In this document: positions 4,854-10,007 of the stretch, piece after piece
How the letters are laid out: each line of letters opens with the position of its first letter
How positions within the stretch are numbered: position 1 is the stretch's first letter
Assembly: GCA_040881665.1 (NCBI GenBank)
Contig: JBBECT010000004.1
Span: 692,303 to 756,302, forward strand
Reading direction: 5' to 3'
Source of the DNA: Actinomycetota bacterium
GTDB taxonomy: Bacteria; Actinomycetota; UBA4738; HRBIN12
DNA length: 64,000 nucleotides
Made by a program: the position numbers and the translations under genes
Notes under the pieces: model-generated
What the model was told of the DNA's origin: nothing
Databases searched by the model: none
The model's input: the letters and a program-made list of their open reading frames with translations, nothing else

Positions 4854-6167
4854 CTAGAAGTTGACCTTCGGCGCCCCGACCTGGGTGACGTTCGCGGTCG
4901 ACATCCCGTTCCATGCCCGATCGCGTGCGTTCGCGGACGGTGTCCATACAGGGGTCACCGCGCCGGCCGTCTCCGTCGGGCCGGAGGGGTTGCCGAGCGT
5001 GATCGTGATCGCATTCCCGCTCATCACCATCGTCGAGTTCGTGAAGCTCCGGGTCGCGCCGTTCACGAAGTTCCCGCCGAGCGCGACGTCGTTGAACGGC
5101 AGCTGGGTGGTGTTCGCGGAGTCCCAGACCTGCAGGCGGTCGTTGCTCGCGTTCTGGGTGATCCGGGCGGTCACCGTCGTGCTCGATCCGTCCCAGCCCG
5201 CGAGGAACGAGATCGGTTCCATCGGCTCGCTGAAGGAGTAGGTCGCGGTGTCGCCGGCCTCAGGCTTGCCTGCCGTTCCGCCACCGTTCGTCGTCTGGAA
5301 GTCCGTCCCGGTCGGCACGGTGTTGTCGACGGTCACGCTTCCGGTGTTCGAGGTGCCGCTGTTGCCGAGGGTGTCGATCGCGGTGATCGAATAGCTCTTC
5401 GCGCCCGCGGACAGTGGGTTGCTCGCCGTCTGAGCGGCGCTGCGCCAGGTGTAGGAGACGCCGCCGACGCTGAAGGGTCCGCCGGCCGTGGTGAGCGCGA
5501 CCGCTCCCGCCCCGCTGCCGCTGACGTTCGTGAGGTTCGCGGTCGCGCTCGTCACACCGACGGCGTCGGCCAGGTTCGCGTACACGCGGTAGGAGCCGTT
5601 CTGCCGGATGAAGCCGACGACGCCGCCCTCGTTCTTCTGGATCACGGTCGCGGTGACACTGGGTCCGGCGTTGTCGACCGTCACCGAGTACGGGCCGTCG
5701 TTGCCCGAGTTCCCGGCGTTGTCGGTCAGCGTGAACGAGTAGTTCACGCTCCCCGAGGCGAGGCCGCCGTTCGCCGTCTGCTGTGCCGAGCGCCAGGCAT
5801 AGCTCGTGCCGTCGACGGTCCACGGGCCGCCGGCCGTCGAGAGGTTCGTCGTTCCGGCTCCGGTGGTGATGTTCGACAGGTCGGCCACGACGGAGGCCAC
5901 GCCGCTCGGGGGACTGCCGAGGTCGGTCACGTTCGCGAACACGCGGTAGGTGCCGCCCGCGCGGATCGAGCCGGCCACGTTCCCGCCGCCTTCGATCACG
6001 GTGTCGTCGATCACAGGCGGGCGAAGGTCGTCGGCCGCCTCGAAGGTGTTGTTCGGGTTCTGCGCGGTGTCGAAGAACGCCGCGTAGGTCGCACCCCCGC
6101 CGATCCCGACGGCGAGCCCGAACGCGACGAGCAGCACGAGCGCCTTGATGCCGTGGGGCCGCCTCAT
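4854..6167 (-). CDS. Secreted Ig-like repeat protein with SipW-type signal
   Basis: A 437-residue exported protein. The N-terminus has basic residues, a hydrophobic stretch and then GGATYAAFFDTAQNPNNTFEA, the pattern of SipW-dependent signal peptides (small residue, AxF, then NxF). Two tandem repeats of about 115 residues follow (about 48-170 and 171-285). Each starts near a VIxxGG motif, includes GxYRVxAN, contains an AGGPxxVxGxxYxWRSAxQTA core and ends VTVDN, consistent with bacterial Ig-like beta sandwiches. The C-terminal 150 residues are another beta-rich domain. There is no LPXTG or membrane anchor. ATG 6167 overlaps the signal peptidase stop (ATGA), so it is the last gene of the coupled block. 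Likely a surface or fibre-associated adhesin; function not proven. Confidence 0.75.
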   Translation of the reverse strand: MRRPHGIKALVLLVAFGLAVGIGGGATYAAFFDTAQNPNNTFEAADDLRPPVIDDTVIEGGGNVAGSIRAGGTYRVFANVTDLGSPPSGVASVVADLSNITTGAGTTNLSTAGGPWTVDGTSYAWRSAQQTANGGLASGSVNYSFTLTDNAGNSGNDGPYSVTVDNAGPSVTATVIQKNEGGVVGFIRQNGSYRVYANLADAVGVTSATANLTNVSGSGAGAVALTTAGGPFSVGGVSYTWRSAAQTASNPLSAGAKSYSITAIDTLGNSGTSNTGSVTVDNTVPTGTDFQTTNGGGTAGKPEAGDTATYSFSEPMEPISFLAGWDGSSTTVTARITQNASNDRLQVWDSANTTQLPFNDVALGGNFVNGATRSFTNSTMVMSGNAITITLGNPSGPTETAGAVTPVWTPSANARDRAWNGMSTANVTQVGAPKVNF

Positions 6168-7039
6168 CCCGTTGCCTCCCCGGGCTGGGTGGCGCCCTCG
6201 TCGGTGCTCTCGTCGGAGGTCGGTCGCCAGATCCGCCACAGCTCGTAGGCCCCGAGAAGCAGCGCCGGGAACACGATCAACAGCAGCCGCCCGAGCGAGC
6301 CCCGCAGGTAGAACAGGACGTAGCCGATCTTCGGGACGCGGAACACGACACGGCCGATCTGCCCGTCGGGTGTGATCCGCCACTGTTCCACGGAGGTGTT
6401 CGCGTCGCCCTTCGTCACGAACGTCACCTCGTTGTCCCCAACCTCCATCGCCCGCACTCGGTGAGTGATCAGGCGCGAGGGATCCTCGGGGTCGCGGAAC
6501 GACACGATGTCACCGATGCGCGCGTCCAGTGGCGGGATCTGCTCGACGACGACGACGTCGCCGGTGGTGATCGCCGGTTCCATACTGCCCGACAGCACCG
6601 TCAGGCTCCGGTTGCCCTGGACGATCGGAACGGTGATCGCGAGGACGAACCCCGCGGCCAGTCCGAAGACGATCCACAGTCCGACCATCGCGGCCCAACG
6701 GGCGAGCCGTCGGGGGACCCTCCGGTGATCCTGGGGCTGGGGGCCCGAGGGGAGGTTCGTCTGCGCTTGCAGTTCGGCGACCAGGGAAGTCTCTCGGGGC
6801 AACTGGGGCGACGCCTCCGGGAGGGTCTCGCGTGCGGCCAGCTCTGTGAACGTCTCGCGTGCCGGCTGCTCCGGGACGTTCTCCAGGTCGTCGTGCCGCG
6901 AGGGGGTCAGCAGGTCGATAGCGCCGGCGGGGACGTTGGACGAAGCGGTCTTCGCGCCGTCGAAACCGAGCGCGTGGAGGCGCTCCAGCAGCTCCTTGCT
7001 GGGGATCCCGAGCTCGCGCGCGAGTTCGTAGGTCCTCAC
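6164..7039 (-). CDS. SipW-type signal peptidase I fused to an IF-2 N-terminal domain
   Basis: 291 residues. Residues 1-50 (starting VRTYELARELGIPSKELLER) match the translation initiation factor IF-2 N-terminal domain (IF2_N) in its YELAxELGxxSKELLExLxxLG core. A disordered Gln/Pro/Glu-rich linker (about 51-115) leads to a transmembrane helix (about 120-140). Then comes an S26B peptidase domain: VLSGSMEPAI holds the catalytic Ser, and ITHRV carries His where bacterial SPase I has Lys, as in SipW and ER/archaeal signal peptidases. A second membrane helix lies near 250-270. The GTG start overlaps the upstream stop (GTGA), and no stop separates the two domains. Likely processes the TasA-like and Ig-like cargo encoded beside it. 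Confidence 0.85.
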   Translation of the reverse strand: MRTYELARELGIPSKELLERLHALGFDGAKTASSNVPAGAIDLLTPSRHDDLENVPEQPARETFTELAARETLPEASPQLPRETSLVAELQAQTNLPSGPQPQDHRRVPRRLARWAAMVGLWIVFGLAAGFVLAITVPIVQGNRSLTVLSGSMEPAITTGDVVVVEQIPPLDARIGDIVSFRDPEDPSRLITHRVRAMEVGDNEVTFVTKGDANTSVEQWRITPDGQIGRVVFRVPKIGYVLFYLRGSLGRLLLIVFPALLLGAYELWRIWRPTSDESTDEGATQPGEATG

Positions 7040-7620
7040 TGGTTGCGCGCCTCCCACACGAAGTCGGCGCCGGCGGACAGCGCCTCGGCGTTCGGGTTGT
7101 CCTGCAGCGTGACCTCGAACCGGTAGGCGTGGGCGTCGTTGGTCGACCACGTCTGTGGGTCGATGACGCCGCCGCCCCAGCCCGCCGGGAACGCGTCGAG
7201 GTCGCCCTCGTAGATCACGCCGGGTCCGTCGCCGTTGTAGTCGGTCGGGTCCGGGGTGAACCCGCCACAGCCGGGGAACGAGGGCGAGGCGTCCGTGCCG
7301 CGCGTGACCTTCAGCGTCAGGTACTGGCCGAGTGAGCCCGTCACGTTGGCGTACAGGCGCACGTCGGCGTCGAGCGATCCCGAGTAGGTGACGAGGATGC
7401 AGCCCTGGACCGAGTCGTTCGGGTAGGCATCGGTCAGCGTCATCATCGCGCTGCCGCTGTCGTTGTCGGCGATCCGCACCGTTCCTGCGGCGAACGCGTT
7501 CGCCGGGTTGCCGGTCGTGTCCGAGAAGGCCGCCCACGTGCCGGTCCCGGACACGACGGCGACGATCCCGACGACGAGCGCCGAGATCGCGATCCGCCGG
7601 AAGCGGCCCAGGCCCTTCAC
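7036..7620 (-). CDS. TasA/camelysin-like secreted protein (third paralogue)
   Basis: 194 residues. A hydrophobic N-terminal helix (about 10-32) is followed by GTWAAFSDTTGNPANAFAAG, a SipW-dependent signal segment, and by a beta-sandwich domain typical of TasA/CalY fibre proteins. It is related to, but clearly diverged from, the two identical paralogues encoded at 8241 and 9222; all share an N-terminal AFSxTTxNxxNxFxAGTV region and a YxGSLDADVxLYA motif. The GTG start at 7620 overlaps the upstream stop (GTGA) and its own stop overlaps the signal peptidase start. Expected to be exported and assembled or anchored at the cell surface. Confidence 0.8.
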   Translation of the reverse strand: MKGLGRFRRIAISALVVGIVAVVSGTGTWAAFSDTTGNPANAFAAGTVRIADNDSGSAMMTLTDAYPNDSVQGCILVTYSGSLDADVRLYANVTGSLGQYLTLKVTRGTDASPSFPGCGGFTPDPTDYNGDGPGVIYEGDLDAFPAGWGGGVIDPQTWSTNDAHAYRFEVTLQDNPNAEALSAGADFVWEARNQ

Positions 7621-8141
7621 GAGCGCACCCCCCGCGGGAGAACCTCGAGGTCGATCGATTCGATCCGCCCGCGGAAGTCCTCCGCGGCGTCCTCCGGGAT
7701 CCACACCGACACCGTGAGCGTCCGTGTTTGCCCCGACGCGATCGTCACGCTTCCCGGCGATGCGGACCGCAGGTCCCCGAGGGGACCGCGGAACACGCGG
7801 TGACCGGCAGCATCGACCTCGACCCACAGCACCTCGTCGAGGTCCACACCGGTTGGGAGCGCGCGGACCTGCACGACCTGCGGCAGGGCGGAGATGTTCG
7901 TGAGGGACAGCTCCTCGCTCGCGGCGCGGCCCTCGGTACCGGGCTGGAGTCCGGTCGCGGACAGGAACGGACCGACGGGATCGGCGTGGACGACCCCGGT
8001 ATTGGCGGCCGCGACGATCACGTCTGCGCCGAGGACACCCTCGCCGGGCGGAACGCGCCAGGCCACGACGGCGGAGAACGCGATCGCGAGCCCGAGGATG
8101 AACGCTGCTCCTCGGACCGCCATGTCGCCTCGGACCTTCAT
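7617..8141 (-). CDS. Small exported protein of the TasA/SipW locus, unknown function
   Basis: 174 residues. An N-terminal hydrophobic helix (about 10-28) is followed by VPPGEGVLGADVIVAA and a beta-rich domain with no cysteines. The body (VxVRALPTGVDLDEVLWVEVDAAG, then a TVSVWIPEDA segment) looks like a small beta-sandwich carrier and may be a minor subunit or assembly partner. It heads the four-gene overlapping block. ATG 8141 has GGGAG about 6 nt upstream. I recognise no named family; the role is inferred only from position and export signal. Confidence 0.65.
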   Translation of the reverse strand: MKVRGDMAVRGAAFILGLAIAFSAVVAWRVPPGEGVLGADVIVAAANTGVVHADPVGPFLSATGLQPGTEGRAASEELSLTNISALPQVVQVRALPTGVDLDEVLWVEVDAAGHRVFRGPLGDLRSASPGSVTIASGQTRTLTVSVWIPEDAAEDFRGRIESIDLEVLPRGVRS

Positions 8142-8191
8142 GTGATGCTCCCGCTTCGGGTGTCGTCGATCGGATGCGCGGCGGCGACGGC

Positions 8192-8219
8192 GGGAGCCCT
8201 CGAGGGGGAGAGGGCCCCC
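8192..8219 (-). terminator. Terminator-like hairpin after TasA-like copy 1
   Basis: On the minus strand, downstream of the stop codon, GGGGGCCCTC and GAGGGCTCCC form a 10-bp stem (one G-T pair) with an 8-nt loop. There is no T-tract, as is common for high-GC Gram-positive terminators. It separates this gene from the block starting at 8141. Confidence 0.6.
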
Positions 8220-8240
8220 GCCATCACCGACCGTGCAGCT

Positions 8241-8825
8241 CTAGTTGTTCTGTGCCTCCCAGGTGTAGGAGTGCGCCCCGGTGGACAGGGCCACGGCCCC
8301 GCCGTTCGCGGCGTTGTCGTCCTGCAGGGTGAGGGTGAACCGGAACACGACCGCGTCGTTCTGGACCCACTCGGTCTGGGCGCCGGGGTTCACGGCGAGC
8401 CCGTTGCCCCAGCCCGTGTGGGCTGCGGCGAAGTTCCCGAGCGTGTCGTTGTAGATCGTGCCGTCCGAGGAGAAGCCCGCGCAGCCCGCGCCGAAGGCAA
8501 CCGCACCGGTGCCCTTCTCGATCTCCAGGTCCACGTAGTCGCCGAGCGCGCCGACCGCCGAGGCGTACAGCTTCACGTCGGCATCCAGCGATCCGGTGTA
8601 GGTCACGGTGATGCATCGCACGAGCGCGTCGCCGGGCGCCTGGCCCGAGACGTTGTACATCGCCGAGCCGGCGTCGTTGTCGGTCAGGTAGACCGTGCCG
8701 GCCGTGAAGTCGTTACCGCTGTTGACCGTGGTCGCCGAGAACGCCGAGAAGGTTCCGACCCCGGCCAGGGCTCCCACGATCCCGATCACCAGAACCGTGA
8801 GGAGCAGCTTGCGCGTCTTGCTCAT
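8241..8825 (-). CDS. TasA/camelysin-like major secreted protein, copy 1
   Basis: 194 residues. After MSKTRKLLL comes a hydrophobic helix (about 10-27), then GTFSAFSATTVNSGNDFTAG, the SipW-dependent signal pattern, then a compact beta-sandwich domain. Two cysteines (in VRCITVTY and GAGCAGF) could form a disulfide after export. The protein appears identical to that encoded at 9222-9806, but the promoter regions differ. The ATG at 8825 has AAGGAGG about 7 nt upstream. Its own upstream region (8826-9169) carries a NarL-like inverted repeat. Most likely a fibre or surface-layer subunit processed by the SipW-type peptidase encoded downstream. Confidence 0.82.
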   Translation of the reverse strand: MSKTRKLLLTVLVIGIVGALAGVGTFSAFSATTVNSGNDFTAGTVYLTDNDAGSAMYNVSGQAPGDALVRCITVTYTGSLDADVKLYASAVGALGDYVDLEIEKGTGAVAFGAGCAGFSSDGTIYNDTLGNFAAAHTGWGNGLAVNPGAQTEWVQNDAVVFRFTLTLQDDNAANGGAVALSTGAHSYTWEAQNN

Positions 8826-8903
8826 GTGGTGCCCTCCTTGTCGTCCGCCTGAGATAGCGCTTGTGCCACGCATCCAATGTCGGCCCCGAAGGGGTCCCGC
8901 GAC

Positions 8904-8967: not shown

Positions 8968-9172
8968 CGGCTCCGGACCACCCGGATCGGTGGTGCGGGG
9001 CTCCGACCTGCGGAGACGGCGGCGCATGGGAGGAACGGATCACCGACGGAACGTCTCATCGCTCCCCAGAACGGACCATGAGGGCCGGGTGCGGATCGGC
9101 CCCCGGGACGGCCCGGGATTGACAACGACCCGGGGCCGACGAGTGCGGACCCGGGTCGTTCGTGGAGCTGGC

Positions 9173-9200
9173 GGGAGCCCTCGAGGGGGAGAGGGCCCCC
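9173..9200 (-). terminator. Terminator-like hairpin after TasA-like copy 2
   Basis: Same 10-bp stem and 8-nt loop as at 8192-8219, downstream of the stop at 9222 on the minus strand. It lies inside the duplicated unit, so each copy has its own terminator and probably its own transcript. Confidence 0.6.
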
Positions 9201-9221
9201 GCCATCACCGACCGTGCAGCT

Positions 9222-9806
9222 CTAGTTGTTCTGTGCCTCCCAGGTGTAGGAGTGCGCCCCGGTGGACAGGGCCACGGCCCCGCCGTTCGCGGCGTTGTCG
9301 TCCTGCAGGGTGAGGGTGAACCGGAACACGACCGCGTCGTTCTGGACCCACTCGGTCTGGGCGCCGGGGTTCACGGCGAGCCCGTTGCCCCAGCCCGTGT
9401 GGGCTGCGGCGAAGTTCCCGAGCGTGTCGTTGTAGATCGTGCCGTCCGAGGAGAAGCCCGCGCAGCCCGCGCCGAAGGCAACCGCACCGGTGCCCTTCTC
9501 GATCTCCAGGTCCACGTAGTCGCCGAGCGCGCCGACCGCCGAGGCGTACAGCTTCACGTCGGCATCCAGCGATCCGGTGTAGGTCACGGTGATGCATCGC
9601 ACGAGCGCGTCGCCGGGCGCCTGGCCCGAGACGTTGTACATCGCCGAGCCGGCGTCGTTGTCGGTCAGGTAGACCGTGCCGGCCGTGAAGTCGTTACCGC
9701 TGTTGACCGTGGTCGCCGAGAACGCCGAGAAGGTTCCGACCCCGGCCAGGGCTCCCACGATCCCGATCACCAGAACCGTGAGGAGCAGCTTGCGCGTCTT
9801 GCTCAT
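9222..9806 (-). CDS. TasA/camelysin-like major secreted protein, copy 2
   Basis: 194 residues, same protein as the copy at 8241. SipW-dependent signal (hydrophobic helix, then SAFSATTVNSGNDF) and a beta-sandwich domain. The ATG at 9806 is preceded by AGGAGG about 9 nt upstream. This copy lies 201 bp from the NarL-family regulator gene and has its own NarL-like repeat at 9927-9942. Two identical genes with separately conserved operators suggest high dosage of a structural subunit. Confidence 0.82.
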   Translation of the reverse strand: MSKTRKLLLTVLVIGIVGALAGVGTFSAFSATTVNSGNDFTAGTVYLTDNDAGSAMYNVSGQAPGDALVRCITVTYTGSLDADVKLYASAVGALGDYVDLEIEKGTGAVAFGAGCAGFSSDGTIYNDTLGNFAAAHTGWGNGLAVNPGAQTEWVQNDAVVFRFTLTLQDDNAANGGAVALSTGAHSYTWEAQNN

Positions 9807-9901
9807 GTGGGTCCGTCCTCCTGTGTCGCGTCCGTCCGCTTCGCCGGGTAGCAGGCTCCCGGTCACAGAACGAGGCATCGGCACGAGGGCGGTCCATTTC
9901 G

Positions 9902-9920
9902 ATTCCCGCGTGTGGGGAGA
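9902..9920. promoter_or_regulatory. Imperfect inverted repeat ATTCCC-N7-GGGAGA
   Basis: Counterpart of the perfect repeat at 8904-8922, 95 nt upstream of the TasA-like start at 9806. One arm is degenerate. Confidence 0.3.
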
Positions 9921-9926
9921 TGCGCT

Positions 9927-9942
9927 TACCCGCGTTCGGGTA
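9927..9942. promoter_or_regulatory. NarL-like 7-2-7 inverted repeat upstream of copy 2
   Basis: TACCCGCGTTCGGGTA is a 16-bp near-perfect palindrome (TACCCG/CGGGTA arms) with NarL 7-2-7 geometry, 120 nt upstream of the ATG at 9806. The matching site before copy 1 sits at a similar distance although the surrounding bases have diverged. Confidence 0.55.
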
Positions 9943-10007
9943 GCGAGGCGGGAGAAGGGCTGCACCGCGACCGATCCGCCTCGGTGGCTGTGTTCGCAGG
10001 GGCCGCG

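Follow-up and report, generated by a model that had tools for sequence, protein, structure and literature searches.

Why should a membrane-bound signal peptidase begin with a domain of translation initiation factor IF-2? The question is raised by a gene in the window, by which we mean the whole 64,000-nucleotide stretch of Actinomycetota DNA analyzed here. The original prediction, which placed this gene correctly but gave no strand, held that an IF2_N domain continues in frame through a linker into a signal peptidase of the SipW type.

Results

The gene occupies positions 6164..7039, with the minus strand as its coding strand (GTG start at 7039, TGA stop at 6164-6166), as is the case for the parts of the protein and the neighboring genes located below, and encodes a 291-residue protein in which an IF2_N domain is fused to an ER/SipW-type signal peptidase. 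The domain comprises residues 1-46 (6902..7039), as judged by PF04760, alignment to IF-2, AlphaFold2, and Foldseek, and is followed by an acidic, proline-containing linker with no detectable domain (residues 47-105; 6725..6901), whose net charge is about -8 over residues 50-105. The first transmembrane helix is predicted at residues ~116-140 (6620..6694) from hydropathy and charge and the second at residues ~245-270 (6230..6307). A stretch with a charge of +5 lies directly before the first helix, and hence, by the positive-inside rule, the N-terminus of the peptidase, and IF2_N with it, would be on the cytosolic side of the membrane. GC3 is 0.91 in the domain, 0.86 in the linker, and 0.89 in the peptidase core, as expected of a coding frame throughout with uniform codon composition. 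We also note an in-frame TTG at codon 80 (6800-6802), a possible start for a short form without IF2_N that recalls the isoforms of IF2.

The domain matches PF04760 with an E-value of 6.4e-6 and 26.3 bits (curated cut-off 25.3), and scores 29.6 bits in a genome-wide search. The similarity reaches beyond the part matched by Pfam, and residues 1-46 can be aligned over their whole length with the N-termini of 18 IF-2 proteins of the same class at 44-54% identity. Fifteen of the 17 positions that are fixed in those 18 proteins are retained within residues 1-37, whereas none of the five fixed residues of the basic tail adjoining the domain in IF-2 (including P42, R43, and R45) has been kept. Retention of so many fixed residues at about 50% overall identity suggests that the fold is under constraint. 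The Pfam match above cut-off, the alignment to IF-2, and the uniform GC3 together bear out the predicted in-frame fusion.

The three-helix fold of IF2_N, for which a structure prediction had been proposed as a check, was likewise recovered. AlphaFold2, given residues 1-49 and the IF-2 alignment, returned helices at residues 3-10, 14-23, and 38-44 with a pLDDT of 84.6, a model that is partly circular in that the other rows of the alignment are IF-2; run without an alignment, it placed the same three helices in residues 1-49 at lower confidence. The best matches of a Foldseek comparison with the PDB were structures of IF2 (9a4o first, and 4b43 at 1.1 A rmsd and a TM score of 0.82), with E-values that are weak (0.09-3.9) because the domain, at 49 residues, is tiny. 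RacA, BldC, and other small DNA-binding domains were matched as well. Pfam detects neither the G domain nor the C-terminal domains of IF-2 in the protein, which therefore does not qualify as a translation factor IF-2. Judged by sequence and position, then, the domain is an IF-2-derived IF2_N of the N1 type, with a predicted three-helix fold.

The remainder of the protein matches Peptidase_S26 of Pfam (E 8e-6) and the NCBIfam family sigpep_I_arch (TIGR02228; E 5e-27, 94.7 bits against a cut-off of 51.85). Its score against SipWBacil (NF046067) is 79, as compared with a cut-off of 190. By these profiles the enzyme is an ER/SipW-type (S26B) signal peptidase distinct from the Bacillus SipW equivalog. 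Ser152 (in SGSMEP; 6584..6586) and His193 (in THRV; 6461..6463), the latter replacing the Lys of LepB-type enzymes, correspond to the catalytic Ser and His that had been predicted, and both are invariant in an alignment of orthologues, as is the conserved Asp212 (in KGDAN; 6404..6406). The peptidase is thus presumably active.

The fusion gene is the third of four in a translationally coupled operon (8141-7617, 7620-7036, 7039-6164, and 6167-4854) joined by four-base start/stop overlaps throughout. The first gene (7617..8141) encodes a secreted-looking protein of 174 residues without a family match. The second (7036..7620), which has GTGA overlaps at both ends, encodes a 194-residue TasA/camelysin-like protein (PF12389, TIGR04088) with a signal peptide of the SipW-dependent type. 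The fourth (4854..6167), which overlaps the peptidase gene by ATGA, encodes a 437-residue surface protein with Ig-like (Big) domains, and its SipW-type signal peptide is weak (16.9 bits against a cut-off of 19). Upstream of the operon lie genes for a second TasA-like protein with a SipW-type signal peptide (8241..8873) and for a third that is a near-copy of it (9222..9965, the true start probably being inside the frame). TIGR04088 is above cut-off in three neighbors of the fusion and slightly below in a fourth, and the TasA-like surroundings that had been predicted are thus present. An exact direct repeat of 641 bases (8189-8829 and 9170-9810) spans most of two of the TasA-like genes and, from its sequence, is a recent or gene-converted tandem duplication. 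SipW and TasA provide a precedent for a peptidase paired with substrates from its own operon (PMC4551309). In light of this precedent and of the operon context, the fusion peptidase is most likely dedicated to the TasA-like surface proteins encoded with it, which are of a fibre type and whose export signals it would probably remove.

How did the peptidase come by its extra domain? Orthologues in three sister genera (genomes G010, G011, and G013) have the same gene order and the same ATGA/GTGA start overlap but no IF2_N. The absence of the domain at the same start overlap argues that IF2_N is a lineage-specific gain just after the start codon; its loss in all three sister genera is a less simple alternative. 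Among 17 genomes of the family only that of the fusion (G000) has a third copy of IF2_N, outside IF-2; the 15 others with matches have exactly two each, close together and in one frame, as in IF-2.

It had also been suggested that the same pairing of PF04760 with SipW might be found elsewhere, including beside TasA-like genes, but no instance emerged beyond this genome. Of the 131 SipW-like frames gathered across the phylum and GTDB, only the fusion gene's own copies carry IF2_N. A subfamily of such fusions was sought without further cases among 17 family genomes, among 27 class genomes, among the matches that were read from a 397-genome sample of the phylum, among the best 80 GTDB loci listed, and in the viral contigs searched. 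The original prediction had named confinement to one genome together with signs of a chance extension as grounds for doubt. The first part holds, whereas the second does not: a chance extension is rejected in view of the Pfam score, the codon composition, the predicted fold, and the convergent fusion described below. Other N-terminal additions to SipW-like proteins came to light. One such protein (L039:940-2013, genome G021) adjoins a SpoIID-like gene and has an HTH-looking N-terminus, and it has apparently lost its catalytic residues (SGQM instead of SGSM, and no THR). Two SipW-like peptidases of Chloroflexota (L048 and L082) have N-terminal regions of about 200 residues of no recognized kind.

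Extra copies of IF2_N are found in 23 genomes besides that of the fusion, among 383 genomes of the phylum with IF2_N. Several are in long frames of the size of RNase E, and the one that we read (L176, genome G073) is RNase E/G-like. Two others (L182 in genome G102 and L183 in genome G056) consist of IF2_N, a linker, and a LepB-type signal peptidase I. L182 exceeds the PF04760 cut-off and L183 falls slightly below it (22.4 against 25.3), but the two are 71% identical across the domain, which they retain at low identity to IF-2. They come from two of 16 genomes of another actinobacterial family and are the only carriers within their 24-genome class. Both have a second signal peptidase gene alongside in tandem, and the linker of L182 is lysine/alanine-rich and histone-like. 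Their IF2_N domains are closest to the IF-2 of their own class and that of the window fusion to the IF-2 of its class, so that the SipW-type and LepB-type fusions probably arose separately, 46 residues being too few for a firm tree. Three further membrane proteins begin with IF2_N: an LCP/LytR_C protein (L175:376-1683, genome G134), in which the domain is cytosolic, an HD-GYP protein (L185:1181-3664, genome G248), and, with a match below cut-off, an ABC exporter (L190:789-2945, genome G233). By a rough count, membrane proteins make up five of the seven types of non-IF-2 carrier (p ~0.02 against an assumed 28%, a post hoc figure from a small sample).

Discussion

What might an IF-2 domain do on a signal peptidase? 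We tentatively propose that an infB-derived IF2_N tethers a signal peptidase dedicated to its own operon and docks it toward the transcription-translation machinery, an explanation that we prefer while holding it with somewhat less than even confidence. On this view, the first ~46 codons of the lineage's own infB would have been copied onto the cytosolic N-terminus of an ER/SipW-type peptidase. The domain, hanging in the cytosol on a flexible tether of about 60 residues, would dock to a protein and so hold the enzyme close to transcription-translation complexes engaged in making exported proteins. Hypothetical partners are NusA and the 30S subunit. In Escherichia coli the N1 domain of IF2 binds the C-terminus of NusA, although that contact has been shown only in E. 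coli and the interacting regions are, according to the authors, not well conserved (PMC12297416). In Pseudomonas aeruginosa it is the N2 domain that binds h16 of 16S RNA at the 30S shoulder (PMC9192638). The domain of the fusion resembles N1 by position and has a net charge of 0, and the loss of the basic tail together with the acidic linker favors a protein partner over RNA, which bears on the original suggestion that the enzyme may be brought to translating ribosomes or to its own mRNAs. Docking is supported by the retained fold residues, by the gain of the domain in one lineage, by the second, LepB-type fusion elsewhere, and by the preponderance of membrane proteins with an N-terminal IF2_N (LCP, HD-GYP, and ABC exporter) among the other carriers. 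It is weakened by the single genome, the lost basic tail, the restriction of the NusA contact to E. coli, and the possible start at codon 80.

A somewhat unlikely alternative is that the 5' end of infB works as an expression cassette, giving the gene a well-folding start that is translated efficiently and raises the output of peptidase, or that it is a neutral passenger, with no docking in either case. An InfB-derived "expressivity tag" has indeed been used in published work, and the fusion, in its single genome, replaces the short start of a translationally coupled gene. Yet an effect at the nucleotide level would not need the core fold residues to be kept across the whole domain at about 50% identity, and in the LepB fusions, too, the domain is kept although its identity to IF-2 is low. 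That the fusion is an artefact of assembly or gene calling is scarcely credible: its occurrence in a single genome is set against a 966-kb contig, a continuous frame of uniform codon composition, a start overlap common to the orthologues, and the existence of the same kind of fusion elsewhere.

Two further explanations concern the partner of the domain. IF2_N could be an HTH-like nucleic-acid-binding module through which the membrane-tethered peptidase regulates its own operon, a function reminiscent of the second role reported for SipW in B. subtilis, which is described as bifunctional in that its peptidase activity is dispensable for biofilms on solid surfaces (PMC5817204). The structural matches to RacA, BldC, and other small DNA-binding domains, this non-proteolytic role of SipW, and the degenerate SipW-like protein with a different HTH-looking N-terminus (L039) are consistent with such a regulator, but the neutral domain, acidic linker, and lost basic tail argue against it, as does the fact that the closest homologues are IF-2 proteins rather than transcription factors, and we consider it improbable. 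We attach equally little likelihood to docking outside translation, for example on a cytosolic protein of envelope assembly. The presence of IF2_N on LCP, HD-GYP, and ABC-exporter proteins would fit such a partner, as would the top fold match, a PDB entry whose title describes a crosslinking model of IF2 and TagH; against it, no such partner is known.

If, as we prefer to think, the domain docks to the transcription-translation machinery, signal peptidases may be stationed where proteins are made, coupling of translation to export would become testable, and the little-understood N1 domain of IF2 would gain a portable function. That two kinds of signal peptidase carry the domain hints that protein synthesis and protein export may be functionally linked. 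A broader conjecture, which we regard as unlikely, is that Actinomycetota use IF2_N as a portable cytosolic address label, repeatedly copied from infB onto envelope proteins, signal peptidases included, so that export enzymes are linked to transcription-translation complexes located at the membrane. The parts of the fusion are known; what appears to be new is that they are combined, and that this has happened independently on two types of peptidase. In keeping with the original prediction, to whose author the architecture was not known as described, the literature searched contained no report linking IF2_N with a signal peptidase, and earlier occurrences among the architectures in UniProt are possible.

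Finally, we compare the fusion with known systems. Like the N1 subdomain of IF-2 (PF04760), its domain stands at the very N-terminus before a long flexible linker and is similar to it in sequence (44-54% identity) and the same in predicted fold; unlike IF-2, the fusion is a membrane protein that has lost the basic tail and lacks the other parts of the factor. With SipW/ER-type signal peptidases (MEROPS S26B) it shares the Ser-His-Asp residues, two membrane helices, and adjoining TasA-like putative substrates, but it adds a cytosolic IF2_N and linker, whereas in its orthologues from the sister genera about 8-30 residues precede the first membrane helix. The RNase E/G-like protein L176 is similar in carrying IF2_N outside IF-2 in Actinomycetota and differs in being an RNA-processing enzyme rather than a peptidase. 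The closest parallel in layout is provided by L182 and L183, in which IF2_N, a linker, and a membrane signal peptidase follow one another as in the window fusion, but the enzyme is of the LepB (Ser-Lys) type, the class is a different one, and the origin of IF2_N is probably separate.
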